A stretch of DNA of 64,000 nucleotides from Gammaproteobacteria bacterium Ga0074134 (GCA_001464965.1 LNEJ01000014.1:1-64000); one strand, 5' to 3'. Positions 6,197 to 52,390 are shown, counted from the stretch's first letter. Translations and numbers: made by a program. The notes: generated by a model not told the origin, from the sequence alone.

Positions 6197-7138
6197 TCAA
6201 GCCTGAAGCGCCTCATCCAGAGTGACTGGATCGAACACCGGCAGCACCGCCATATCACGTTCGATGCGTTTGTTAAGCCCGGCGAGCACTTTGCCGGGGC
6301 CACATTCTACCAAACTTTTTACCCCCGCGTTTGCCATGGAACGAATGGTTTCCACCCAACGCACCGGGTTATACAACTGCCTGACCAGCGCATCGCGGAT
6401 TTTATCCGCTTCGGCATAAACAGCTACATCGGTATTGTTAACGACCGGTATTCCGGGTGTTTTCAATACGACCGTTTGCAGCAGCGCGGCAAGGCGCTCG
6501 GCGGCGGGCTTCATCAGCAGGCAGTGTGATGGCACACTCACCGGCAGCACAAGAGCGCGCTTGGCACCGGCCTGCTTGGCCAGCTCGACGGCACGCGCCA
6601 CTGCCGCCGCCGTCCCTGCCACCACCACCTGGCCGGGAGAGTTGAAATTCACCGCTGCCACCACCTCATCCGAAGCGCCAGGGGCGGCCGACGCATCCCT
6701 GCACACCTGAATCACCTGCGCGTCCTCAAGACCGAGAATCGCCGCCATCGCGCCCTCGCCCGCCGGCACGGCCTCCTGCATGTAGCGCCCACGCTCCGCA
6801 ACGAGGCGCACAGCATCGTTAAAATCCAGCGCGCCGGCGCACACCAGCGCCGTATACTCACCCAGGCTATGCCCAGCCATCATCATAGGCATAGCGCCCT
6901 GCCGGGCCTGCCAAACGCGCCATACGGCAACCCCCGCGGCAAGCATGGCGGGCTGGGTTTTATGAGTCTGATTCAGCTCCGCTTCCGGGCCGGACTGAAC
7001 CAGGTCCCACAGATCATAACCCAGCACCTCCGATGCCTGGCCAAACGTCTGGCGCACCTGGGGATAGGCAATAGCCAGCTCCGAGAGCATCCCCACGGAT
7101 TGTGAACCTTGACCGGGAAAAACAAAAGCAAGCGACAT
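6197..7138 (-). CDS. fabD: Malonyl-CoA:ACP transacylase FabD
   Basis: Transfers malonyl from CoA to ACP, supplying the elongation substrate. FVFPGQGSQSVGM lies at the N-terminus, the nucleophile serine is in AGHSLGEY, and the active-site histidine is in VSVPSHC. The start at 7138 (MSLAFVFPG, AGGG eight bases upstream) gives 313 residues, the family length; a further upstream in-frame ATG at 7207 would add an unlike N-terminus. It is separated from fabH by a gap with an inverted repeat. Confidence 0.96.
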   Translation of the reverse strand: MSLAFVFPGQGSQSVGMLSELAIAYPQVRQTFGQASEVLGYDLWDLVQSGPEAELNQTHKTQPAMLAAGVAVWRVWQARQGAMPMMMAGHSLGEYTALVCAGALDFNDAVRLVAERGRYMQEAVPAGEGAMAAILGLEDAQVIQVCRDASAAPGASDEVVAAVNFNSPGQVVVAGTAAAVARAVELAKQAGAKRALVLPVSVPSHCLLMKPAAERLAALLQTVVLKTPGIPVVNNTDVAVYAEADKIRDALVRQLYNPVRWVETIRSMANAGVKSLVECGPGKVLAGLNKRIERDMAVLPVFDPVTLDEALQA

Positions 7139-7193
7139 CGACGTACCCTGTAACAGATTTATGTTTTTTAACGAAACATTACGAGATATCTTG

Positions 7194-7299
7194 TCCACGA
7201 AACTCACGAAAAAACAAAAACAATGGATTGATTTAGCAATTCACTGGATAGGGGCAATATGCACCTAAATATTTTCGTGTTTTTTCGTGACAACGTGGA
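7194..7299. repeat. Inverted repeat in the fabH-fabD gap
   Basis: Left arm TCCACGAAACTCACGAAAAAAC (split here as TCCACG plus TCACGAAAAAAC, 7194-7215) pairs with the right arm at 7279-7299, whose complement reads TCCACG-TTG-TCACGAAAAAAC. Eighteen positions pair around a roughly 60-base loop. It occupies most of the non-coding space between fabH and fabD and may be a transcript-stabilising or pausing structure, or a remnant of a small palindromic element. It is unrelated to the two repeat families described elsewhere in the window. Confidence 0.5.
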
Positions 7300-7316
7300 T
7301 AACCAAGTTTTTCAGG

Positions 7317-8285
7317 TTAATACTTGAGCAATGCCGATCCCCAGGTGAAGCCCGCGCCAAAGGCCTCCAACAATAGCATATCACCCCGCTGGATGCGGCC
7401 ATCCCGAACCGCGACGTCCAGCGCGAGCGGCACCGAGGCCGCCGAGGTGTTACCGTGCTCGCCCACGGTGACAACCACCCGTTCCATGGGCATTTTCAGC
7501 TTTTTGGCGGTGGCTTCGATGATGCGTATATTCGCCTGATGCGGCACCAGCCAGTCCACGTCGGACTTTTCGAGCTGGTTAGCCGCCAGCGTCTCATCCA
7601 CAATACGCCCCAGGGTATTCACGGCGACCTTGAAAACCTCGTTACCCTGCATCTTGACGTACTGACTGCCCTGTTGAATGTTTTCAAAACCTTGCGAGAT
7701 GCCGTAGGGAATGGTCAGCAGGTTTTCATAGATGCCATCGGAATGTGTATGTGTAGAGAGGATACCCGGCGTATCACTGGCGCCGAGCACCACCGCGCCG
7801 GCGCCATCACCGAACAGCACACAGGTGCCGCGATCGGTCCAGTCAACGATGCGCGACATGGTTTCCGCGCCCACTACCAGGACATTGCGCGCACTGCCGG
7901 AACGGATAAACTTGTCCGCAACATCCAAGGCATAGATGAAGCCGGTACAGGCGGCCTGAAGATCAAAAGCCGCCGGGCCGCGGATATCCAGACGCCGCTG
8001 GAGCAGACAGGCAGTGCTGGGAAATATCCGGTCTGGGGTGGTGGTTGCTACCACAATGAGATCGATATCGGAAGTCTTGATACCCGCGGCTTCAATGGCG
8101 CGCCGCGCGGCGGCTTCGCTCATGTCACAGGTGGTCTCACCGGGGGCTGCAATGTGACGCTTACGGATGCCGGTACGCTCCACGATCCACTGATCCGTAG
8201 TGTCGACCATCTTTTCAAGATCGGCGTTAGTCAACACCTTTTCAGGCAGATAGCCGCCGGTGCCGATGATGCGCGAATATTTCAA
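7317..8285 (-). CDS. fabH: 3-oxoacyl-ACP synthase III FabH
   Basis: Initiating condensing enzyme joining acetyl-CoA to malonyl-ACP. The Cys-His-Asn triad is visible in [19 protein letters not shown] and EHGNTSAAS, and the C-terminus is [13 protein letters not shown]. The frame is open upstream to 8405, but the family N-terminus [13 protein letters not shown] begins directly at a TTG (8285) preceded by GAGAGG eight bases away. That TTG overlaps the plsX stop (TTGA), so coupling to plsX is likely. The resulting protein of 322 residues has the usual size. Confidence 0.95.
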
Positions 8286-36686: not shown

Positions 36687-36737
36687 GCAGGCGTTGACGG
36701 CCTCGCTAAACGAAAAATCTTGCCAAGCATCACAATG

Positions 36738-36949
36738 ATCCTAGAAACGGCAGTTGACCGCTTCTTTGGACGATTAGCAATATGTTTTAGATGGGTTTTG
36801 TCATACCCTGCGGACTCATCTGTTTGGTGAGTCCGCTACGGGGCGGATTGCACGATTTTCAGTGCGCATGGCAGCGTTGCAACTCCTTGGAATGGAACAA
36901 CCATTCCGCGTCGTTGCGCCTTACACCGTTCAACTGCCGTTTCTAGGAT
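36738..36949. repeat. Family 2 MITE-like element, copy A (212 bp)
   Basis: Bounded by perfect 20-bp inverted repeats: ATCCTAGAAACGGCAGTTGA at 36738-36757 and its reverse complement at 36930-36949. Internal sequence matches the copy at 51360-51599 in long blocks, including GGAATGG...CCATTCC nested inside GTTGCAAC...GTCGTTGCGCC. No open frame of useful length and no transposase. It sits between a DUF2288 gene and the tRNA-Ile2 gene (276-bp gap). Most likely a non-autonomous element or a family of structured intergenic repeats. Confidence 0.8.
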
Positions 36950-42665: not shown

Positions 42666-43601
42666 TTAACCGCACGTGTAGACATAAAAAGCATCCACCG
42701 GAACGCGCGCGTTATCGGCCCATCCACCTATCAAATAAGCGGATCTGCCTACCACCGCAACCCCCATTGCCGCCAGCGTGCCCGGCATGGGGCCGACTTG
42801 ATGCCACACGCCCGCTTCAGCGTCATAATAAGCGGCGCGGTCATGGATGCCATCGCCGCTGTACCCGCCAAAGATGAAGATTTTCCCATCCAGGATACAG
42901 GCGCCCAGGCCTGCTGCGGTCCATGGCAGTACCAGCGTCTCGTCCCTCACCCATACACCTTGCGCCGGATCATAAGATTCCACAAAGTCGAAGTTATTAA
43001 AGCCCTTGCTGCTGAAAGCTACTCCGCCCATCGTCAATATCTTCCCCCCGGAGACGACGGCGGTGAGAGCGAACCTTGGCGTGGGCAATGGGGCAATCTC
43101 CTCCCACCCCCCTTTCGTAATGTCCAGGCGCTCACAGAAATCAAAACCCGGGTCGGTTTGCGGCCCGCCCTGCGTGGCGTCCGGATGATGCCCACCCATT
43201 ACATAGATGCAACCATCGAGATACGCCACCGCCGGGTAATCATGCGGCCTCAGCAGATCAGGGCCACGCTCCCACGCATCCCGCCCGGGGTAATAAATTT
43301 CGACCTCTGTCAAAAAACGGAATGTCCCATTTGACTGCTTGAATCCCCCGCCCATCACATAAATACGATCACCAACAGTGACTGCCACCGTCCCCGACCT
43401 CAACGTAGGCATATCCGCGCGCTTTTCCCAAACCCCAGTGGCAGGATCGTACATCCGGGTCAAATTCATGCTGGCGAAATTCACGCCGCCGCCGCCAAAG
43501 GTATAAATTTTATTTTCATGGACAACCACCGACGGGTGAGACCGCGCGACATCCAGAGGCCCCTTGCTAACCCATCCGCCCGAACAAAAAGCATCTCCCA
43601 T
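42666..43601 (-). CDS. Six-blade kelch-repeat protein
   Basis: 311 residues with six kelch repeats, each ending in a hydrophobic strand plus GG: IYTFGGGG, IYVMGGG, IYVMGGH, ILTMGGV, IFIFGGY and AYLIGGW. Conserved Tyr/Trp appear between them (YDPATGVWEKRADMP). Six blades make a closed beta-propeller, a scaffold for binding or sometimes catalysis. No signal peptide, so it is probably cytoplasmic; an early Cys (FCSGG) is present. It has AGAGGG seven bases before the ATG and precedes moeB, which suggests but does not prove a link to molybdoenzymes. Confidence 0.85.
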   Translation of the reverse strand: MGDAFCSGGWVSKGPLDVARSHPSVVVHENKIYTFGGGGVNFASMNLTRMYDPATGVWEKRADMPTLRSGTVAVTVGDRIYVMGGGFKQSNGTFRFLTEVEIYYPGRDAWERGPDLLRPHDYPAVAYLDGCIYVMGGHHPDATQGGPQTDPGFDFCERLDITKGGWEEIAPLPTPRFALTAVVSGGKILTMGGVAFSSKGFNNFDFVESYDPAQGVWVRDETLVLPWTAAGLGACILDGKIFIFGGYSGDGIHDRAAYYDAEAGVWHQVGPMPGTLAAMGVAVVGRSAYLIGGWADNARVPVDAFYVYTCG

Positions 43602-46629: not shown

Positions 46630-47955
46630 TTATGCTATCAGTTCCGGCGCAGGCGGGCAGCAACGATACTCTTGAGATTTCTCCAAAAGCTCAATCTTCT
46701 TTTTTAGCAGCTCGTTTTCAAGCGCCGCTCGCTCCAGGCCAAGCTCAACTTCCTTTTCCACCGCAGGCTCGCAGATATTGCAATCATCAAGGCAGCCTTT
46801 GACCAGCAGACCCGGCGTGGGTAATGAGCTGCGCCGCTCATACGAAAAACGCTTTTTGATCTCGTCAGAAAGCTTGCCAGTTTTGTCCAGCAGCCCCTCC
46901 TTGACCAAGCGTTCATCGACGTAAGCGAGGGCCTTGAGCCGCGTCGCTTCGGGAATCGGCTCAATGGTGGAGGCCGCACTGGCGAACAGTCCTGCGGCGG
47001 ACCTGAAATTACCCACACCTGCGGCGTCTGTTACACGCTGCTGTGCCAATACACTGGCGCGGGCTGTCTCTTCGATCTTGAGGCGATTCGTGTCCGTGGC
47101 CAGCACGGCGCTGGGAATGGCTGTGACACCGCCGGTGGAAACAAAACGATTATTCGTGATGCGTGTATCGGCTGCCGGGTCGATGACGCGCCGCTCGATG
47201 GACTCGATGGTGAATTTCACGATTTGCGTTTTATTAATCTGGTAAAAATAGAAGGTGACGACATGACATTTGTTGGGATTGGAAAAAGTCCGCGACGCCG
47301 ACTCGAAATGATCCTCCGACTCTCCTTCTGTATGGCTGCGGCTGGAGACTTCGCCGACTGACACAGAACTTGCAGCGCGGGTGGCCATTTCGGCGCGGCG
47401 ATCCGAGCTTGATGCATGCTGGCTGAGTTCGCGCAGGAAGGTGTTGGTCGACGACGCTTCATATGAGCCGCTGACATCGACCGAAGGACCCGCGAAGAAA
47501 CTCTCGATCGCGCCGCTGGTTTCCGCATGCCCCTGAGCCGAACCGCTGCTGGAGCTGGTCGCAGTGGAGGAGTCGCGTACATTCAGGTCGGACATGGAAT
47601 CGTGCATGCTGGCCATGAAGTAACGCTCTTCCGAGGTCTGTTCGTGACGGTAACTAACTCGGCTTGCGGTATCCAGACTGAAGCGAGTACGCCGGTCAGA
47701 GGTGAACAAACGCACCTTCTCGCCAGGCAATAATGTGGTGCTGTAGGCCAGATCACCCAGCGCCATCGGGCCAGGGCAACGCTCGAAACGCGCGTGGATA
47801 ATGACCTCCACCTGCACCGGCCGGTTTCCCGCCACCACGTTGGTAGTGTGCTTGAGCCGGTAATGGAAATCCAGCACGTCGCAGGCGTTGTCTTTTTCCA
47901 GCGGCGGGCAGCAGGGAATGATTTGGGGATGGGGATCGGTGATGATGTCATTCAT
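46630..47955 (-). CDS. Unknown protein with CCPP motifs at both ends and a C-terminal coiled coil
   Basis: I recognise no family. 441 residues, no signal peptide or membrane helix. N-terminus: IIPCCPPLEKDNACDVLDFH, then a beta-rich part (RPVQVEVIIHARFERCPGP, LLPGEKVRLFTSDRRTRF). Residues about 120-205 are Ser/Ala/Thr-rich, low complexity. A soluble middle (CHVVTFYFYQINKTQIVKF) follows, then about residues 395-432 a Glu/Leu/Lys-rich coiled coil (VELGLERAALENELLKKKIE) that ends in YRCCPPAPELIA. KGCLDDCNIC adds more cysteines. Cysteine-rich ends around a helical tail suggest metal binding or cross-linking. It is 83 bp after a 698-residue unknown gene on the same strand. Confidence 0.8.
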   Translation of the reverse strand: MNDIITDPHPQIIPCCPPLEKDNACDVLDFHYRLKHTTNVVAGNRPVQVEVIIHARFERCPGPMALGDLAYSTTLLPGEKVRLFTSDRRTRFSLDTASRVSYRHEQTSEERYFMASMHDSMSDLNVRDSSTATSSSSGSAQGHAETSGAIESFFAGPSVDVSGSYEASSTNTFLRELSQHASSSDRRAEMATRAASSVSVGEVSSRSHTEGESEDHFESASRTFSNPNKCHVVTFYFYQINKTQIVKFTIESIERRVIDPAADTRITNNRFVSTGGVTAIPSAVLATDTNRLKIEETARASVLAQQRVTDAAGVGNFRSAAGLFASAASTIEPIPEATRLKALAYVDERLVKEGLLDKTGKLSDEIKKRFSYERRSSLPTPGLLVKGCLDDCNICEPAVEKEVELGLERAALENELLKKKIELLEKSQEYRCCPPAPELIA

Positions 47956-48038
47956 GACGGTACTCTCCTTGTGTGTGGTCGTGATGTCCTGAAAAATCCA
48001 TCCCGGCGCGCATCACGCAGGCCGGGACGGAAGATCTC

Positions 48039-50135
48039 TCAAGAACACTTTTCTATGGCGATAGCCTTGATCTGCTCTTCATAGTAGATAAAGCCATAGC
48101 CATTGCGAATGTGTGGCCACGCCCATAACTTGAGCGCGAACGCGCAAGTGCTGTTCAGACCTGTCAGCAGTGGCACACCATTCACTATGGTGTTTACCGG
48201 ACTTAACGTGCCGGAATTCGAAACCGTCGCCGGCAGGTAATTTGGCGGTATTGAAAGCACAGTGACCGCCGGATTGACGCCCTTGGTGTATTGCAATCCC
48301 CACGAATGAAGCCTGCCGTTTTCCTGGGTGACGCTGACATTAAAGTCAAGCGGAGGCACGGAATTCCAGGGAATCACTCCGCATTCGTTCAGCACGGCGG
48401 GGATTTGCAGATTCACCACGGGTGGCTTGTTGTCGAGCGTGATCACCAGATCACAATGGTCGACCATAGGCGGCAACACGGCGGGTGGCGCCACCGTACC
48501 GTCGCGGTAATCCACCTGGCCGGAAGCCGTGTTGAGATAGACGCCATTTTCGTCGAATACTTCAAGCCGCAAGACATAAGTGCCGGTATCTTCTTCTGCC
48601 AGCTCGGTATTCCAGGTACCGATCCAGTCCGGGTTATACCAGTAGTAACCGGCACGGTTGCGTACCTCATACAGCGTGGTAGTGCCGTTGACCGTCTTTG
48701 GCCCCAAGGCATAGTCATCGCTGAACAAGGTGGCCTTATCAACCCGCGTATCCACGAGATCGGCGTCTATATATTTGAAGCTACTGCTACCCTGCTTGGC
48801 ATAAGATAGCCGGTAATAACGCGCTGGCACGCCATCTGCCAGATTATCACCAAACTGGCCATAGACCCACAGAGTACGGCCGTAGGCGACATTGGTATAA
48901 GTGGCGTCGTTATAGAGACCGCTAGCCTGGTTGATCTGATACACCTCGTCGTTGCCTATGCGCGTAAAGAAGGTGGCAGATCCTTCGGGCTGCGGATTGC
49001 ACCCTTGGCCACAGCGCACTTCCTCGTTATCCAGGAATAGATCGATATGCGCGTTTGTTGTATTCCAGCGCGTGCTGGTATAGGGATCCATGTAGACGAC
49101 TGTCTCGACCCCGTTGATCACCTGCGTCACACGGATGATGATGTCAGGGCGCGAATCGAAGCGCAGGCGACCGCGGCGGAAATGGAAGGACCACCACGGG
49201 AAACAGCAACGGAAATGACCGTTGCAATCGGTATAGGTCTCGCATACCAGTTGCCTGCTATAAAAACAGTGCGGAAAGATATGCCATGGTGCGATTTTGG
49301 AGGTGAGCGTCAGTTTATCGAGACGCGCGGCAAGTGACGAGGACAATGCGCTGACTTCACCCACGCGCGACAGCGCCATTTGCGCTGACACTAACCGGCC
49401 GGGCGGATCGGGCTGCGGATCAAAGGATACCGCATCACTCAAACCAGCATGCATGGCTGCCGCCGAGACTCGCGGCGGCAGTGGCTGGGGATTCAGCGAT
49501 ACGGTATCACCCGCACCACCAAAGCGCAGCTCCGGCGCGGGATCGGACTCGGGGAACGGTTTCGGGAAAGGACGCTCTTTCAGCAGGTCGGGGACGCGGA
49601 TCACCGGACGGTCCAGCAACACATCCCACCATTTGTGAATCCACGGCCACCAGCAAAATTCGCGATCCACATCGAATATCTCGACCTTGACGTAAGGTAC
49701 CGGACAGGTGGTCGTACTATTTTCGTGATGAGAGATTTTGCGCACATGACCGCTGATACAGATCCGCCGCGGCCACCAGGGACGCCACACATCCAGAGGC
49801 AGTAAGGCTTCATGCCGCAGACGAAATTTTGTCCCCTCCCCTATCCACTCCTTGGCAGTGAACCGCTGGCTGTAGGCGCTGGACTGCCGTATCTGCCCCG
49901 CATCACCCGGCCCGATCATGAGTTCCACATCAGCGGGCTGGGCTAGCTTGACTGCTGCGCTATATCCACCTTTATCATCCACATCAGCCTTGCCCAACAG
50001 GGTTCCAGCCTTATCGAAAACATATACTGCCAATTTCAGTTCGCCGGACTCACATTCGGCTTGCTCCCGCTGTATCCGGCCTTCTATACGGAAATCTCCG
50101 TACTTCCCAACGCCACGCGATTGTTCCTTTGCCAT
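48039..50135 (-). CDS. Large unknown protein with CarboxypepD_reg-like start and NPQPLPP motifs
   Basis: 698 residues, no signal peptide, no clear family by eye. Residues about 12-75 look like a beta-sandwich (FDKAGTLLGKADVDDKGGYS). A Trp/Cys-rich part with PLDVWRPWWPRRICISGHV and DREFCWWPWIHKWWDVLLDR follows. Near 210-245 two spaced motifs VSLNPQPLPPR and VSFDPQPDPPG repeat. After residue 300 another domain has IIIRVTQVINGVETVVYMDP and GQGCNPQPEG, then several beta-rich segments to the end. CKC-type cysteines occur throughout. It leads a two-gene transcript with the 441-residue protein. A secreted or surface scaffold is possible but unsupported without a signal. Confidence 0.8.
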   Translation of the reverse strand: MAKEQSRGVGKYGDFRIEGRIQREQAECESGELKLAVYVFDKAGTLLGKADVDDKGGYSAAVKLAQPADVELMIGPGDAGQIRQSSAYSQRFTAKEWIGEGTKFRLRHEALLPLDVWRPWWPRRICISGHVRKISHHENSTTTCPVPYVKVEIFDVDREFCWWPWIHKWWDVLLDRPVIRVPDLLKERPFPKPFPESDPAPELRFGGAGDTVSLNPQPLPPRVSAAAMHAGLSDAVSFDPQPDPPGRLVSAQMALSRVGEVSALSSSLAARLDKLTLTSKIAPWHIFPHCFYSRQLVCETYTDCNGHFRCCFPWWSFHFRRGRLRFDSRPDIIIRVTQVINGVETVVYMDPYTSTRWNTTNAHIDLFLDNEEVRCGQGCNPQPEGSATFFTRIGNDEVYQINQASGLYNDATYTNVAYGRTLWVYGQFGDNLADGVPARYYRLSYAKQGSSSFKYIDADLVDTRVDKATLFSDDYALGPKTVNGTTTLYEVRNRAGYYWYNPDWIGTWNTELAEEDTGTYVLRLEVFDENGVYLNTASGQVDYRDGTVAPPAVLPPMVDHCDLVITLDNKPPVVNLQIPAVLNECGVIPWNSVPPLDFNVSVTQENGRLHSWGLQYTKGVNPAVTVLSIPPNYLPATVSNSGTLSPVNTIVNGVPLLTGLNSTCAFALKLWAWPHIRNGYGFIYYEEQIKAIAIEKCS

Positions 50136-50366
50136 AAGTTGCTCCTTGTGCCAATGTTTTGATTAAGATTAGGAGGTGTATAGAGCAAGGAGAGCAGTGC
50201 CCGGAAAAAAGACAGCCATCCATGGCCACAAACCTTATCCCTGGAAGGAGGGGTACCCAGGAAAAGCGGAATCGGAATCCCGCAGGCTCTGCACATCCTT
50301 ACGCTGAAACTGCTCCATGTCATGATCGAGGCACTCCTCGATGGACTTAAGAGTACCGGAGGGGGC

Positions 50367-50384
50367 GTTACAGATCGGTTACAG
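50367..50384 (-). promoter_or_regulatory. PhoB/OmpR-type direct repeat upstream of the unknown pair
   Basis: On the minus strand CTGTAAC-CGAT-CTGTAAC, two identical 7-mers with an 11-base period, the layout of PhoB-type boxes (CTGTCAT-N4-CTGTCAT). It lies about 232 bases upstream of the 698-residue gene. TACTCT, possibly a -10, begins about 11 bases downstream of the second repeat. The 290-bp gap between this gene and znuB otherwise shows no gene; a 27-codon frame with no good start site is ignored. Confidence 0.4.
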
Positions 50385-50425
50385 ATTCGAAAAAACGGGG
50401 ATGCGCCGTCAGGGGGAGCCGTGCG

Positions 50426-51361
50426 CTACGGGCGAGGTTGCCCGGAATCTTCTTGGCCTTGATCGCCATGCTGTTCATGCCGCGGGCCGTGAGGATGGGA
50501 GTGGATGACATCACCGTGGCGGTGGATGTGTTCGTGAAGGATAAAGCGTTCCTTGATGTAATTAACCAGCTGCACCAGGCAAAACAGGCTGGCGCCGAAT
50601 AGCACGATGGTTGCGCCTGAAGCGGCGTTGAAGATATAGCTCAGATACATACCCACTACACCCATGATGGCGCCGATGATGGTGGAATAGATGATCATCC
50701 GGCTGAAGCTGTCGGTGAGCATGCGGGCGGTGATGGCGGGTATGACCAGGGTGGCGGCGATCATGGTGACGCCGACGATGTTCATCGAGGCGATGATCGC
50801 CAGGGTAAGGATGAAGGAAAACATCAGCTGCACCACCCCGGTGTTGATGCCAAAGACGCGCGCCGCTTCGTTGTCGAAGGTGGAGAACAGCAGGGGCTTG
50901 TACATCAAAAATACCGTTACCATGGTGAAGGCGGTAACCAGCGCGATGACGGTCAGGTCCTCACTGGTAACGCCCAGGATATTGCCGAACAACGCCGCCT
51001 CGAAGCTCTGGGTAAAGGTGCGCACGCGGCTGATGATGGCTATACCCAGCGCGAAGAAGGCGGTGGTGACAATGCCGATGGCGGCGTCGGATTTAATCTT
51101 GCCGCCCTTCGCTACCTGATTGATCAGAATGGCAGCCAGCAAGCCCATTGCGCCCGCGCCGACATAGAAATTCAGTCCAATGGTAAAACCCACCACGGCG
51201 CCGCCAAAGGCCGCGTGGGATAGCCCGTGGCCGATATAACTCATGCCGCGCAACACGATGTACACGCCGATCAGCCCGCACAGTGCCCCTACCATAAGGG
51301 AGGCAAGCAGGCTGTTCCTGAAAAACTCGTAGGCGAGCGGCTCAAGCAAAAAATCCATCAT
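50426..51361 (-). CDS. znuB: Metal ABC transporter permease, ZnuB type, His-rich tail
   Basis: Permease of the cluster-9 zinc/manganese importers. About 8-9 helices; GLIGVYIVLRGMSYIGHGLSH and ISNL-like VGVTMIAATLVIPAITARML are family blocks. The last 45 residues contain HEHIHRHGDVIHSHPHGPRH, a histidine-rich cytoplasmic tail that could bind metal. ATG at 51361 or 51358; the first lies at the very end of a family 2 repeat whose terminal GAGG provides a ribosome-site match eight bases upstream. 311 residues. Confidence 0.88.
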   Translation of the reverse strand: MMDFLLEPLAYEFFRNSLLASLMVGALCGLIGVYIVLRGMSYIGHGLSHAAFGGAVVGFTIGLNFYVGAGAMGLLAAILINQVAKGGKIKSDAAIGIVTTAFFALGIAIISRVRTFTQSFEAALFGNILGVTSEDLTVIALVTAFTMVTVFLMYKPLLFSTFDNEAARVFGINTGVVQLMFSFILTLAIIASMNIVGVTMIAATLVIPAITARMLTDSFSRMIIYSTIIGAIMGVVGMYLSYIFNAASGATIVLFGASLFCLVQLVNYIKERFILHEHIHRHGDVIHSHPHGPRHEQHGDQGQEDSGQPRP

Positions 51362-51599
51362 CCTAGAAACCTCAGCTGGACGGGGTGGAGTGTGCGGTTA
51401 TGGGGGTGCAGGGCAAGGCGCAACGACGCGGAATGGTTATTCCATTCCAAGGAGTTGCAACGCAGCCATGCGCCGCCATAACCGTGCAATCCGCTCCGTA
51501 GCGCGCCCGCCCAATCGGTGCAATGGTAAAACAACACAAAAGCCATCTTAGTCATTGCCCTATGCGCTCCAATGAGCGGTCAACTGAGGTTTCTAGGAT
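51360..51599. repeat. Family 2 MITE-like element, copy B (240 bp) between znuC and znuB
   Basis: Terminal inverted repeat ATCCTAGAAACCTCAG at 51360-51375 and its complement at 51584-51599. Compared with copy A the arms read CCTCAG in place of CGGCAG, at both ends, so pairing is kept. Internal GGAATGG/CCATTCC hairpin inside GTTGCAAC is shared with copy A, in the opposite orientation in the window. The znuC stop TGA and the znuB start ATG sit at its two edges, so it fills the whole znuC-znuB gap. No open frame of its own. Confidence 0.82.
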
Positions 51600-52390
51600 C
51601 ATATTTTTTCTTTCTCTGCGAGATGCAATGGCGTGCCGCTGGCAATCAGGAAATGATCTCCGTGCTCTACAATCACAATATCACCGCCATAGGTTTTGGT
51701 AAGTATGCCGTTGGTGAAAATGTCGCGCGGCCTGCCCTGGGCAACCAGTCCTTTGTTGAAACAGACCACCCAGGGCAGATGCGATGCGACGGCGTTCAGA
51801 TCGTGAGTAGTGAGCAGAATGGTGATCCCTGCTTTATTCAGGTCACCCAGCAGGTGCAGCACATCGTGCTGGGTTTTTATATCGACCCCGGCGGTAGGCT
51901 CATCGAGCACCAGCAGTTTGGGATTATTGATCAAGGCGCGCGCAAGAAAAGCGCGCTGGCGCTGCCCGCCTGAGATGTTCACTATGTGGTGATGCAGGCA
52001 GTCGTGGATGCCGAGCCGGTCCGCCAGATCGTGAACCTTGTTGCGATCCTGCCGCGTGGGCCAGGGCCAGATCCCCTTGTTGGTGTACAAGCCCATGAGG
52101 ATCACCTGCTCGACGGTGACGGGGAAGCTCCAGTCCACACTTTCGAGCTGGGGGACATAGCCGATACTCCCCGGCGGGAGCTTGTCCACGGGCAACCCCA
52201 GCAGCCGCACATCGCCCGAGAACACCGGCTGGGTACCGAGTATGGTTTTTAACAGCGTGGTCTTGCCTGATCCGGTCGGCCCCACAATACCGGCAAACTG
52301 GCCTGCGGGAATCTCCAGGGAGAGGCGGCTAAAAACGACTTTGCGCTCATAACCCACCGATACGTCATGCAATTTGACAGCAGCTTCCAT
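51599..52390 (-). CDS. znuC: Metal ABC transporter ATPase, ZnuC type
   Basis: Walker A GPTGSGKTTLLK, signature NISGGQRQRAFLARAL and Walker B LLVLDEPTAGVD are complete; the C-terminal ATPase fold ends TPLHLAEKEKI. 263 residues. It follows znuA by 9 bp and precedes the permease, separated from it by the family 2 repeat. Assigned to the Zn/Mn (cluster 9) importers by context and by the IGYVPQ(L/R)ESVDWSFP block. Specificity for zinc, manganese or another metal cannot be settled from the ATPase. Confidence 0.9.
   Translation of the reverse strand: MEAAVKLHDVSVGYERKVVFSRLSLEIPAGQFAGIVGPTGSGKTTLLKTILGTQPVFSGDVRLLGLPVDKLPPGSIGYVPQLESVDWSFPVTVEQVILMGLYTNKGIWPWPTRQDRNKVHDLADRLGIHDCLHHHIVNISGGQRQRAFLARALINNPKLLVLDEPTAGVDIKTQHDVLHLLGDLNKAGITILLTTHDLNAVASHLPWVVCFNKGLVAQGRPRDIFTNGILTKTYGGDIVIVEHGDHFLIASGTPLHLAEKEKI

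Follow-up and report, generated by a model that had tools for sequence, protein, structure and literature searches.

We analyzed a 64,000-nucleotide stretch of DNA from Gammaproteobacteria bacterium Ga0074134 (GCA_001464965.1 LNEJ01000014.1:1-64000; hereafter the window), in which two adjacent genes, here called A and D, encode large proteins (Table 1). Their open reading frames (ORFs) have the positions, common strand, and 83-bp gap given in an earlier, sequence-only reading (the original prediction), and AAGGAG lies ~10 nt 5′ of both start codons. The pair is flanked by znuB (50426-51361, same strand) and by moaA-moaC-moaE (opposite strand), with znu and moa gene names read from the sequence. 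Differences at the three codon positions are 0.198/0.189/0.586 between D and its homologue in locus L005 and 0.254/0.207/0.589 between A and its homologue in L072. Because changes concentrate at the third position in both comparisons, A and D are, by this measure, genuine genes under purifying selection. Against homologues with 57-72% protein identity, the nonsynonymous divergence (dN) is 0.21-0.38 and the synonymous divergence (dS) is ~2 or saturated.

Searches of A, D, and their alignments found no family above its threshold in Pfam, NCBIfam, PHROGs, or PADLOC, and no PDB sequence matched significantly; this agrees with the expectation that neither protein has a recognized domain. The weak β-sandwich resemblance predicted at the start of A was likewise recovered, as a match to Big_6 (PF17936; E 0.016, 15.9 bits against a gathering cut-off of 27.6). 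The proposed mixture of Cys-, Trp-, and Pro-rich stretches needs amendment, as the Trp-rich character belongs to A only and D contains zero Trp. A mobile or phage gene was rejected as a candidate, since no phage, plasmid, or IMG/VR homologue of A or D was found.

All ten cysteines of protein D are kept in at least 94% of homologues, in motifs that include PCCP near the N-terminus, CX3CX2C at residues 388-395, and RCCP at 431-434. In the AlphaFold2 (AF2) model (predicted local distance difference test, pLDDT, 70), a β core (26-85, 221-257) is split by a helical hairpin and followed by a C-terminal β segment and a coiled coil at 397-430. The coiled coil had been predicted from the sequence, and its helix is modeled at pLDDT ~80-94 over most of its length. 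The best PDB fold matches of D are at noise level. One scan of species genomes yielded 36 D loci, most of them distributed over Pseudomonadota, Bacteroidota, Acidobacteriota, Chloroflexota, Actinomycetota, and Chlorobiota; other phyla contributed one locus each. Alignment A1 comprises 36 homologues. The family is patchy and rare: it occurs in 5 of 369 genomes of the window's class, including the distant relative L047, and in 11 of 296 genomes of a Chitinophagaceae member's phylum, where 3 of the 11 are giant relatives. In the tree, the Pseudomonadota D sequences require at least three label changes on well-supported branches. This spread fits horizontal movement, but many of the sources are metagenome-assembled genomes (MAGs), which calls for caution.

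Protein A is modeled as all-β, at a poor pLDDT of 54, with Foldseek matches to tandem FN3/Ig chains. There are 44 such matches at E ≤ 1e-3, several with prob >0.9, although TM-scores are low. The predicted layout comprises an N-terminal β-sandwich (14-112), a split transthyretin/CarboxypepD_reg-like domain, a Pro-rich loop, and tandem FN3/Ig-like sandwiches. Residues 122-159 and 291-349 together resemble one split CarboxypepD_reg/transthyretin-like domain (PF13620); the L062 homologue gives a sub-cut-off match to this family at 115-165 (E 7e-4). A differs from that family in that its domain is interrupted by a Pro-rich loop of 130 residues, predicted to be disordered, that contains the motif SLNPQPLPP, and the rest of A is unmatched. 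The motif recurs in the same loop of homologues in L011, L062, L072, L073, L105, and L107.

Four types of large protein adjoin D, comprising A and its ALTERNATIVES: g1 (the window's type), g2, g3, and cl17. Profile A2 aligns g3 with g1 at 21% identity, whereas for g2 and cl17 the match to the g1/g3 profile covers the C-terminal part only (hhalign probability 98.4, E 9e-15 for g2 and 92.4, E 5e-7 for cl17). Compared with each other alone, g2 and cl17 give a weak profile match. For several other large proteins, whose N-termini differ, the match to A is confined to the last 150 profile columns. A same-strand partner adjoins D in 22 of ~43 D loci from several phyla, in at least four gene orders: A-D, D-A, A-B-C-D, and D-A-B-C. 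Here B is a DUF1360 membrane protein that passes the Pfam cut-off, and C is a small protein whose N-terminus bears a Cys motif. The third module gene of many D genomes belongs to DUF1360 (PF07098). Genome-wide searches of the D genomes covered A and DUF1360, and a DUF1360 protein was found in 13 of 36. The window's genome gave no DUF1360 match, and neither a DUF1360 ORF nor a small Cys-motif ORF lies between the window genes. A literature search on DUF1360 and on the NPQPLPP motif returned nothing relevant.

The partner gene is exchanged at two loci. At the moaE|znuB site in the window's genus, genomes G002 and G003 encode cl17 proteins of 706 and 735 residues in place of A. These are 89% identical to each other and 67% identical to the cl17 protein of L010, and they show no full-length BLAST similarity to A. 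DNA similarity between the window and G002 (L118) is lost at the A stop codon and picks up again at 50207. A leader 5′ of the partner gene is conserved in both genomes, and in G003 it is kept with the partner gene despite ~2 kb of other sequence before znuB. That ~2-kb insert (L119 5537-7599) contains an ORF with an FN3-like segment, a C-terminal hydrophobic stretch, and a basic tail, and resembles another β-sandwich gene or a remnant of one.

D is absent from G002 and G003. G003 retains CACAAGGAGAGTAC, seen 5′ of the D start codon, and AAGGAGAGTAC, the ribosome-binding-site region of D, is also present there, 3′ of the terminator; this scar suggests that D was deleted. A 91%-identical D in G001 (L121 1867-3455) is cut at about residue 235, where it adjoins an ISL3-like transposase ORF that reaches the contig end.

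The second exchange is seen in Thiobacillaceae-type loci from two MAGs of Thiobacillus and one of a related proteobacterium (L010, L011, and L020), whose upstream flanks and D are 72-86% identical at the DNA level. Similarity between L010 and L011 stops no more than 20 bp from the D stop codon and resumes past the partner gene. The partner 3′ of the conserved D is cl17 in L010 and L020 and A in L011. By these alignments, the A and cl17 families substitute for each other at two separate loci, with D retained at one. A natural exchange of partner families at one site, with the regulatory flanks kept, directly indicates that proteins of different construction may fill one role, which makes that role testable by swapping partners.

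In the original prediction, A and D probably shared one transcript. This was not borne out: an intrinsic terminator-like hairpin, conserved in relatives, separates the genes. The hairpin has a folding energy of -29.9 kcal/mol (z -5.12, with 0 of 200 shuffles as stable), is followed by AUUUUUC, and is kept 3′ of the replacement gene in G002 and G003. A simple operon is thereby weakened, and D would be read through or transcribed separately. The leader contains a direct repeat, CTGTAACCGATCTGTAAC, which is kept upstream of different partner genes; its 11-bp spacing is typical of OmpR/PhoB-family sites. An RNA element in the leader or the intergene was considered and rejected, with only a sub-threshold chance match elsewhere.

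In L005, a BTAD-domain regulator (6442-7893; Pfam) precedes D. BTAD/SARP-type ORFs also lie upstream of D in L018 (4612-7848), L021 (1583-4741), and L023 (44-3370), and a BTAD/SARP-type regulator lies near a lone g2 partner in L075 (8460-8912). In L010 and L011, a regulator-like ORF just 5′ of D was read as LuxR-type and has no Pfam match.

These observations lead us to favor, at somewhat less than even probability, a reading in which a bacterial recognition or assembly module pairs D, its constant component, with A, its exchangeable specificity component. A more specific version, which we consider possible but doubtful, is that D is a metal-knuckled coiled-coil scaffold that presents allelically exchangeable β-sandwich recognition proteins via their common C-terminal half. 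The N-terminal part of the partner would bind a ligand or surface, and the common C-terminal half would dock onto, or be handled by, D. Through its coiled coil, D would oligomerize around a metal site that is ligated by Cys and joins C230 of the core to the C-terminal CxxC, and in some genomes the DUF1360 membrane protein and the small Cys-motif protein would anchor the module. Partners would be able to act without D as well. Cellular location, like docking, ligand binding, and the metal site, is something we infer.

The putative metal site is suggested by a wider family, the D-core superfamily, defined in this analysis by a PGE strand, a helical hairpin, an NxN-C/M strand, and a downstream PTxG...CxxCE. 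Profile searches reach a 418-residue distant homologue (L047) and giants of 1,259-2,012 residues (L048, L090-L095) that contain the D core. All of the defining features were found, including in the giants a PTxG...CxxCE-like motif that lies several hundred residues past the core and resembles the D C-terminus. In a viral library (BFVD), there was one clear match to D, an uncharacterized 642-residue protein of Yasminevirus (A0A5K0U6Q4; E 1.3e-14, 25% identity), highly significant in both fold and sequence. The giants and the Yasminevirus protein share with D the core PGE...R and NxNxC/M-H, and the giants also share the C-terminal VPT/LPTxG...CxxCE motif where Cys is retained. Unlike D, the giants lack the coiled coil and RCCP, and they contain an inserted stretch several hundred residues long as well as additional domains (HExxH motifs; by inspection, an OmpA-like C-terminus).

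Giants with the core Cys (NxNxC-H: L048, L090, L093, and L094) retain CxxC, whereas those with Met at that position (L091, L092, and L095) are without the second Cys, a pattern that L047 also fits. This co-variation, in at most eight sequences, suggests a single metal or redox site common to C230 and C392/C395. Through the D core, ordinary bacterial genes, unannotated giant proteins, and a giant virus are connected. Pfam gave no match to this core in L048. Three giants (L048, L090, and L094) combine the D core with a C-terminal HExxH motif (metalloprotease-like), and the C-terminus of L093 reads as an OmpA-like domain rather than HExxH.

Co-occurrence of A and D in other genomes, proposed in the original prediction as support for a new system, was found in part: the adjacency recurs, but each gene also occurs alone. 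A is present in 17 of 35 D-bearing genomes, and in 3 of those 17 (G381, G401, and G405), which are outside the profile's seeds, it lies on another contig. In two unselected samples, A was found in 5/369 and 16/296 genomes and D in 5/369 and 11/296, with no overlap beyond seed genomes. Strict co-inheritance of A and D is ruled out by this lack of overlap. Recurrent adjacency together with the swaps rules out chance neighbors, although unlinked occurrence leaves a weaker version of that idea alive. We conclude that the A-D link is real but optional.

Several observations weigh against the reading of D as constant and A as specificity component. Besides the missing overlap in the unselected samples, copies of A without D are surrounded by ordinary genes in G342, G871, G866, G816, G808, G940, and G991, and D stands alone in L013, L015, L016, L097, and others. 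The nearest D relatives of the window (L005 and L008) are without this A type, and a terminator lies between the two genes. The D model is of moderate confidence and the A model of poor confidence, and neither protein has a signal peptide or anchor apparent by inspection, with no predictor run, so that any surface role is conjectural. None is visible at the termini of cl17 either, again by inspection and with no dedicated predictor. In G006, from the same family as the window, A lies elsewhere (68% identical by BLAST) and D is absent.

Much of this would be expected if A and its alternatives were autonomous binding proteins exchanged by homologous recombination at permissive sites, with D a separate gene, useful in its own right, that is adjacent through shared regulation or mobility and not as part of a joint complex. 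We regard this explanation as unlikely on balance, yet nearly as likely as the favored scaffold reading. The lone copies of A and D, the cl17 genes without D in G002 and G003, the terminator, and the seed-only overlap are in its favor. Four partner types that adjoin D on the same strand in about half of its loci and in at least four orders go beyond chance adjacency, however, and the D genomes outside the profile with A on another contig, as well as the D ribosome-binding-site scar 3′ of the partner terminator in G003, also argue against full independence.

D might instead be an export, maturation, or assembly factor (a chaperone or anchor) for its large partner, recognizing the common C-terminal half. 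A constant helper with swapped cargo is the pattern at L010, L011, and L020, the cargo types have that half in common, and a DUF1360 membrane protein occurs in about a third of D genomes. Against this role, cargo occurs without D in many genomes, no secretion signals were recognized, and the giants contain the D core without such cargo among their annotated neighbors; we consider it improbable.

We give very little weight to the idea that D inserts into membranes or forms pores via a Ser/Gly-rich hairpin, with A as targeting subunit. A Ser/Gly-rich stretch (125-165) does lie between long D helices, the best PDB folds are of MACPF and aerolysin types, and one of 36 D members touches a binary-toxin B domain (E 0.58, the best Pfam value). 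Every fold score is at noise level, though (E ≥0.6, prob ≤0.05), the stretch is modeled at very low confidence, and the distant homologue L047 has a charged helix in place of the hairpin; the identification was rejected. Least probable of all, and only marginally worth entertaining, is an anti-phage or other polymorphic conflict system with A as the variable recognition component. Its swappable component and patchy horizontal spread are suggestive of such a system, but no PADLOC model of a known anti-phage system matched, toxin, nuclease, and NTPase domains were not found in A or D, phage and plasmid collections gave no matches, and the flanks are housekeeping genes. A test for phage structural proteins gave neither a PHROG match nor phage-genome homologues.

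The closest comparison for the partners is with CshA-type fibrillar or modular adhesins, which have GEVED or FN3/Ig stalks (PF20009; PMC10952558), GEVED being an adhesin stalk domain (PMC10952558). Like these adhesins, the partners appear to consist of tandem β-sandwich modules and to diversify by module exchange. The GEVED signal found in cl17 partners (E 8e-5 to 0.03) stays below the gathering score of 24.4, with a best value of 23.8 bits (L010) and 15.7-21.0 bits in the other cl17 partners; A shows none. The partners differ from CshA adhesins in having no CshA NR2 match and in the presence of a separate constant partner gene, D. Of the original description, an uncharacterized structural or binding system, the absence of a known family and the recurrent partner adjacency hold up, and a binding role fits the domain signals, namely the Ig/FN3-like Foldseek matches and the sub-threshold GEVED and CarboxypepD_reg signals.

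No defining feature of adhesins, defense systems, phage proteins, or pore-formers was found, and we assign A and D to none of these. They are categorically new only in the limited sense that they fit no described family or system, which a better fold model could change. None of the libraries searched contains a name or model for the D family or the A-type partners, though D spans at least six bacterial phyla. If the scaffold reading is true, this would be a previously undescribed bacterial system with whole-gene partner replacement between a fixed leader and terminator, and its scaffold superfamily would take in giant bacterial proteins and extend to an amoeba giant virus.

Table 1. Features of the A-D locus, in window coordinates
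Feature	Position	Strand	Basis or remark
Gene A	50135-48039	minus	698 aa, ATG; ORF call; putative exchangeable partner
Gene D	47955-46630	minus	441 aa, ATG; ORF call; putative constant component
Conserved leader, 206 bp, 5′ of partner gene	50190..50395	minus	97% identical in G002, 83% in G003
CTGTAACCGATCTGTAAC direct repeat, 11-bp spacing	50367..50384	minus	sole occurrence in window; leader alignment
Segment replaced by cl17 in G002/G003	48042..50206	minus	BLAST of window vs L118 and ORFs
A Pro-rich loop, residues 159-291, inside transthyretin-like domain	49263..49661	minus	predicted disordered, pLDDT ~22-45
A motif SLNPQPLPP	49473..49499	minus	followed by degenerate second copy SFDPQPDPP
A C-terminal half, residues 385-698	48042..48983	minus	common to cl17 and g2 at profile level
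Intrinsic terminator-like hairpin and U-tract between A and D	47986..48040	minus	folding energy and alignment
D ribosome-binding site AAGGAG	47965..47970	minus	sequence and relatives' alignment
D CX3CX2C motif, residues 388-395	46771..46794	minus	C392 and C395 in 35/35, C388 in 33/35 homologues
D coiled coil, residues 397-430, then invariant CC (RCCP)	46666..46767	minus	alignment and AF2 model

Two further features were noted in the window. A dispersed repeat of ~190 bp is present in two inverted, 77%-identical copies (36735-36922 and 51415-51602), one between znuB and the znu ATPase gene and the other near tRNA-Met. Two more copies occur in same-genus G002 (L118 505-712 and 8982-9169), and the repeat is possibly a MITE/REP-like element (miniature inverted-repeat transposable element or repetitive extragenic palindrome). 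At 42666-43601, a Kelch-repeat-like protein that has no obvious partners is encoded beside a moeB/thiF-type gene, in a region that is syntenic in G002.

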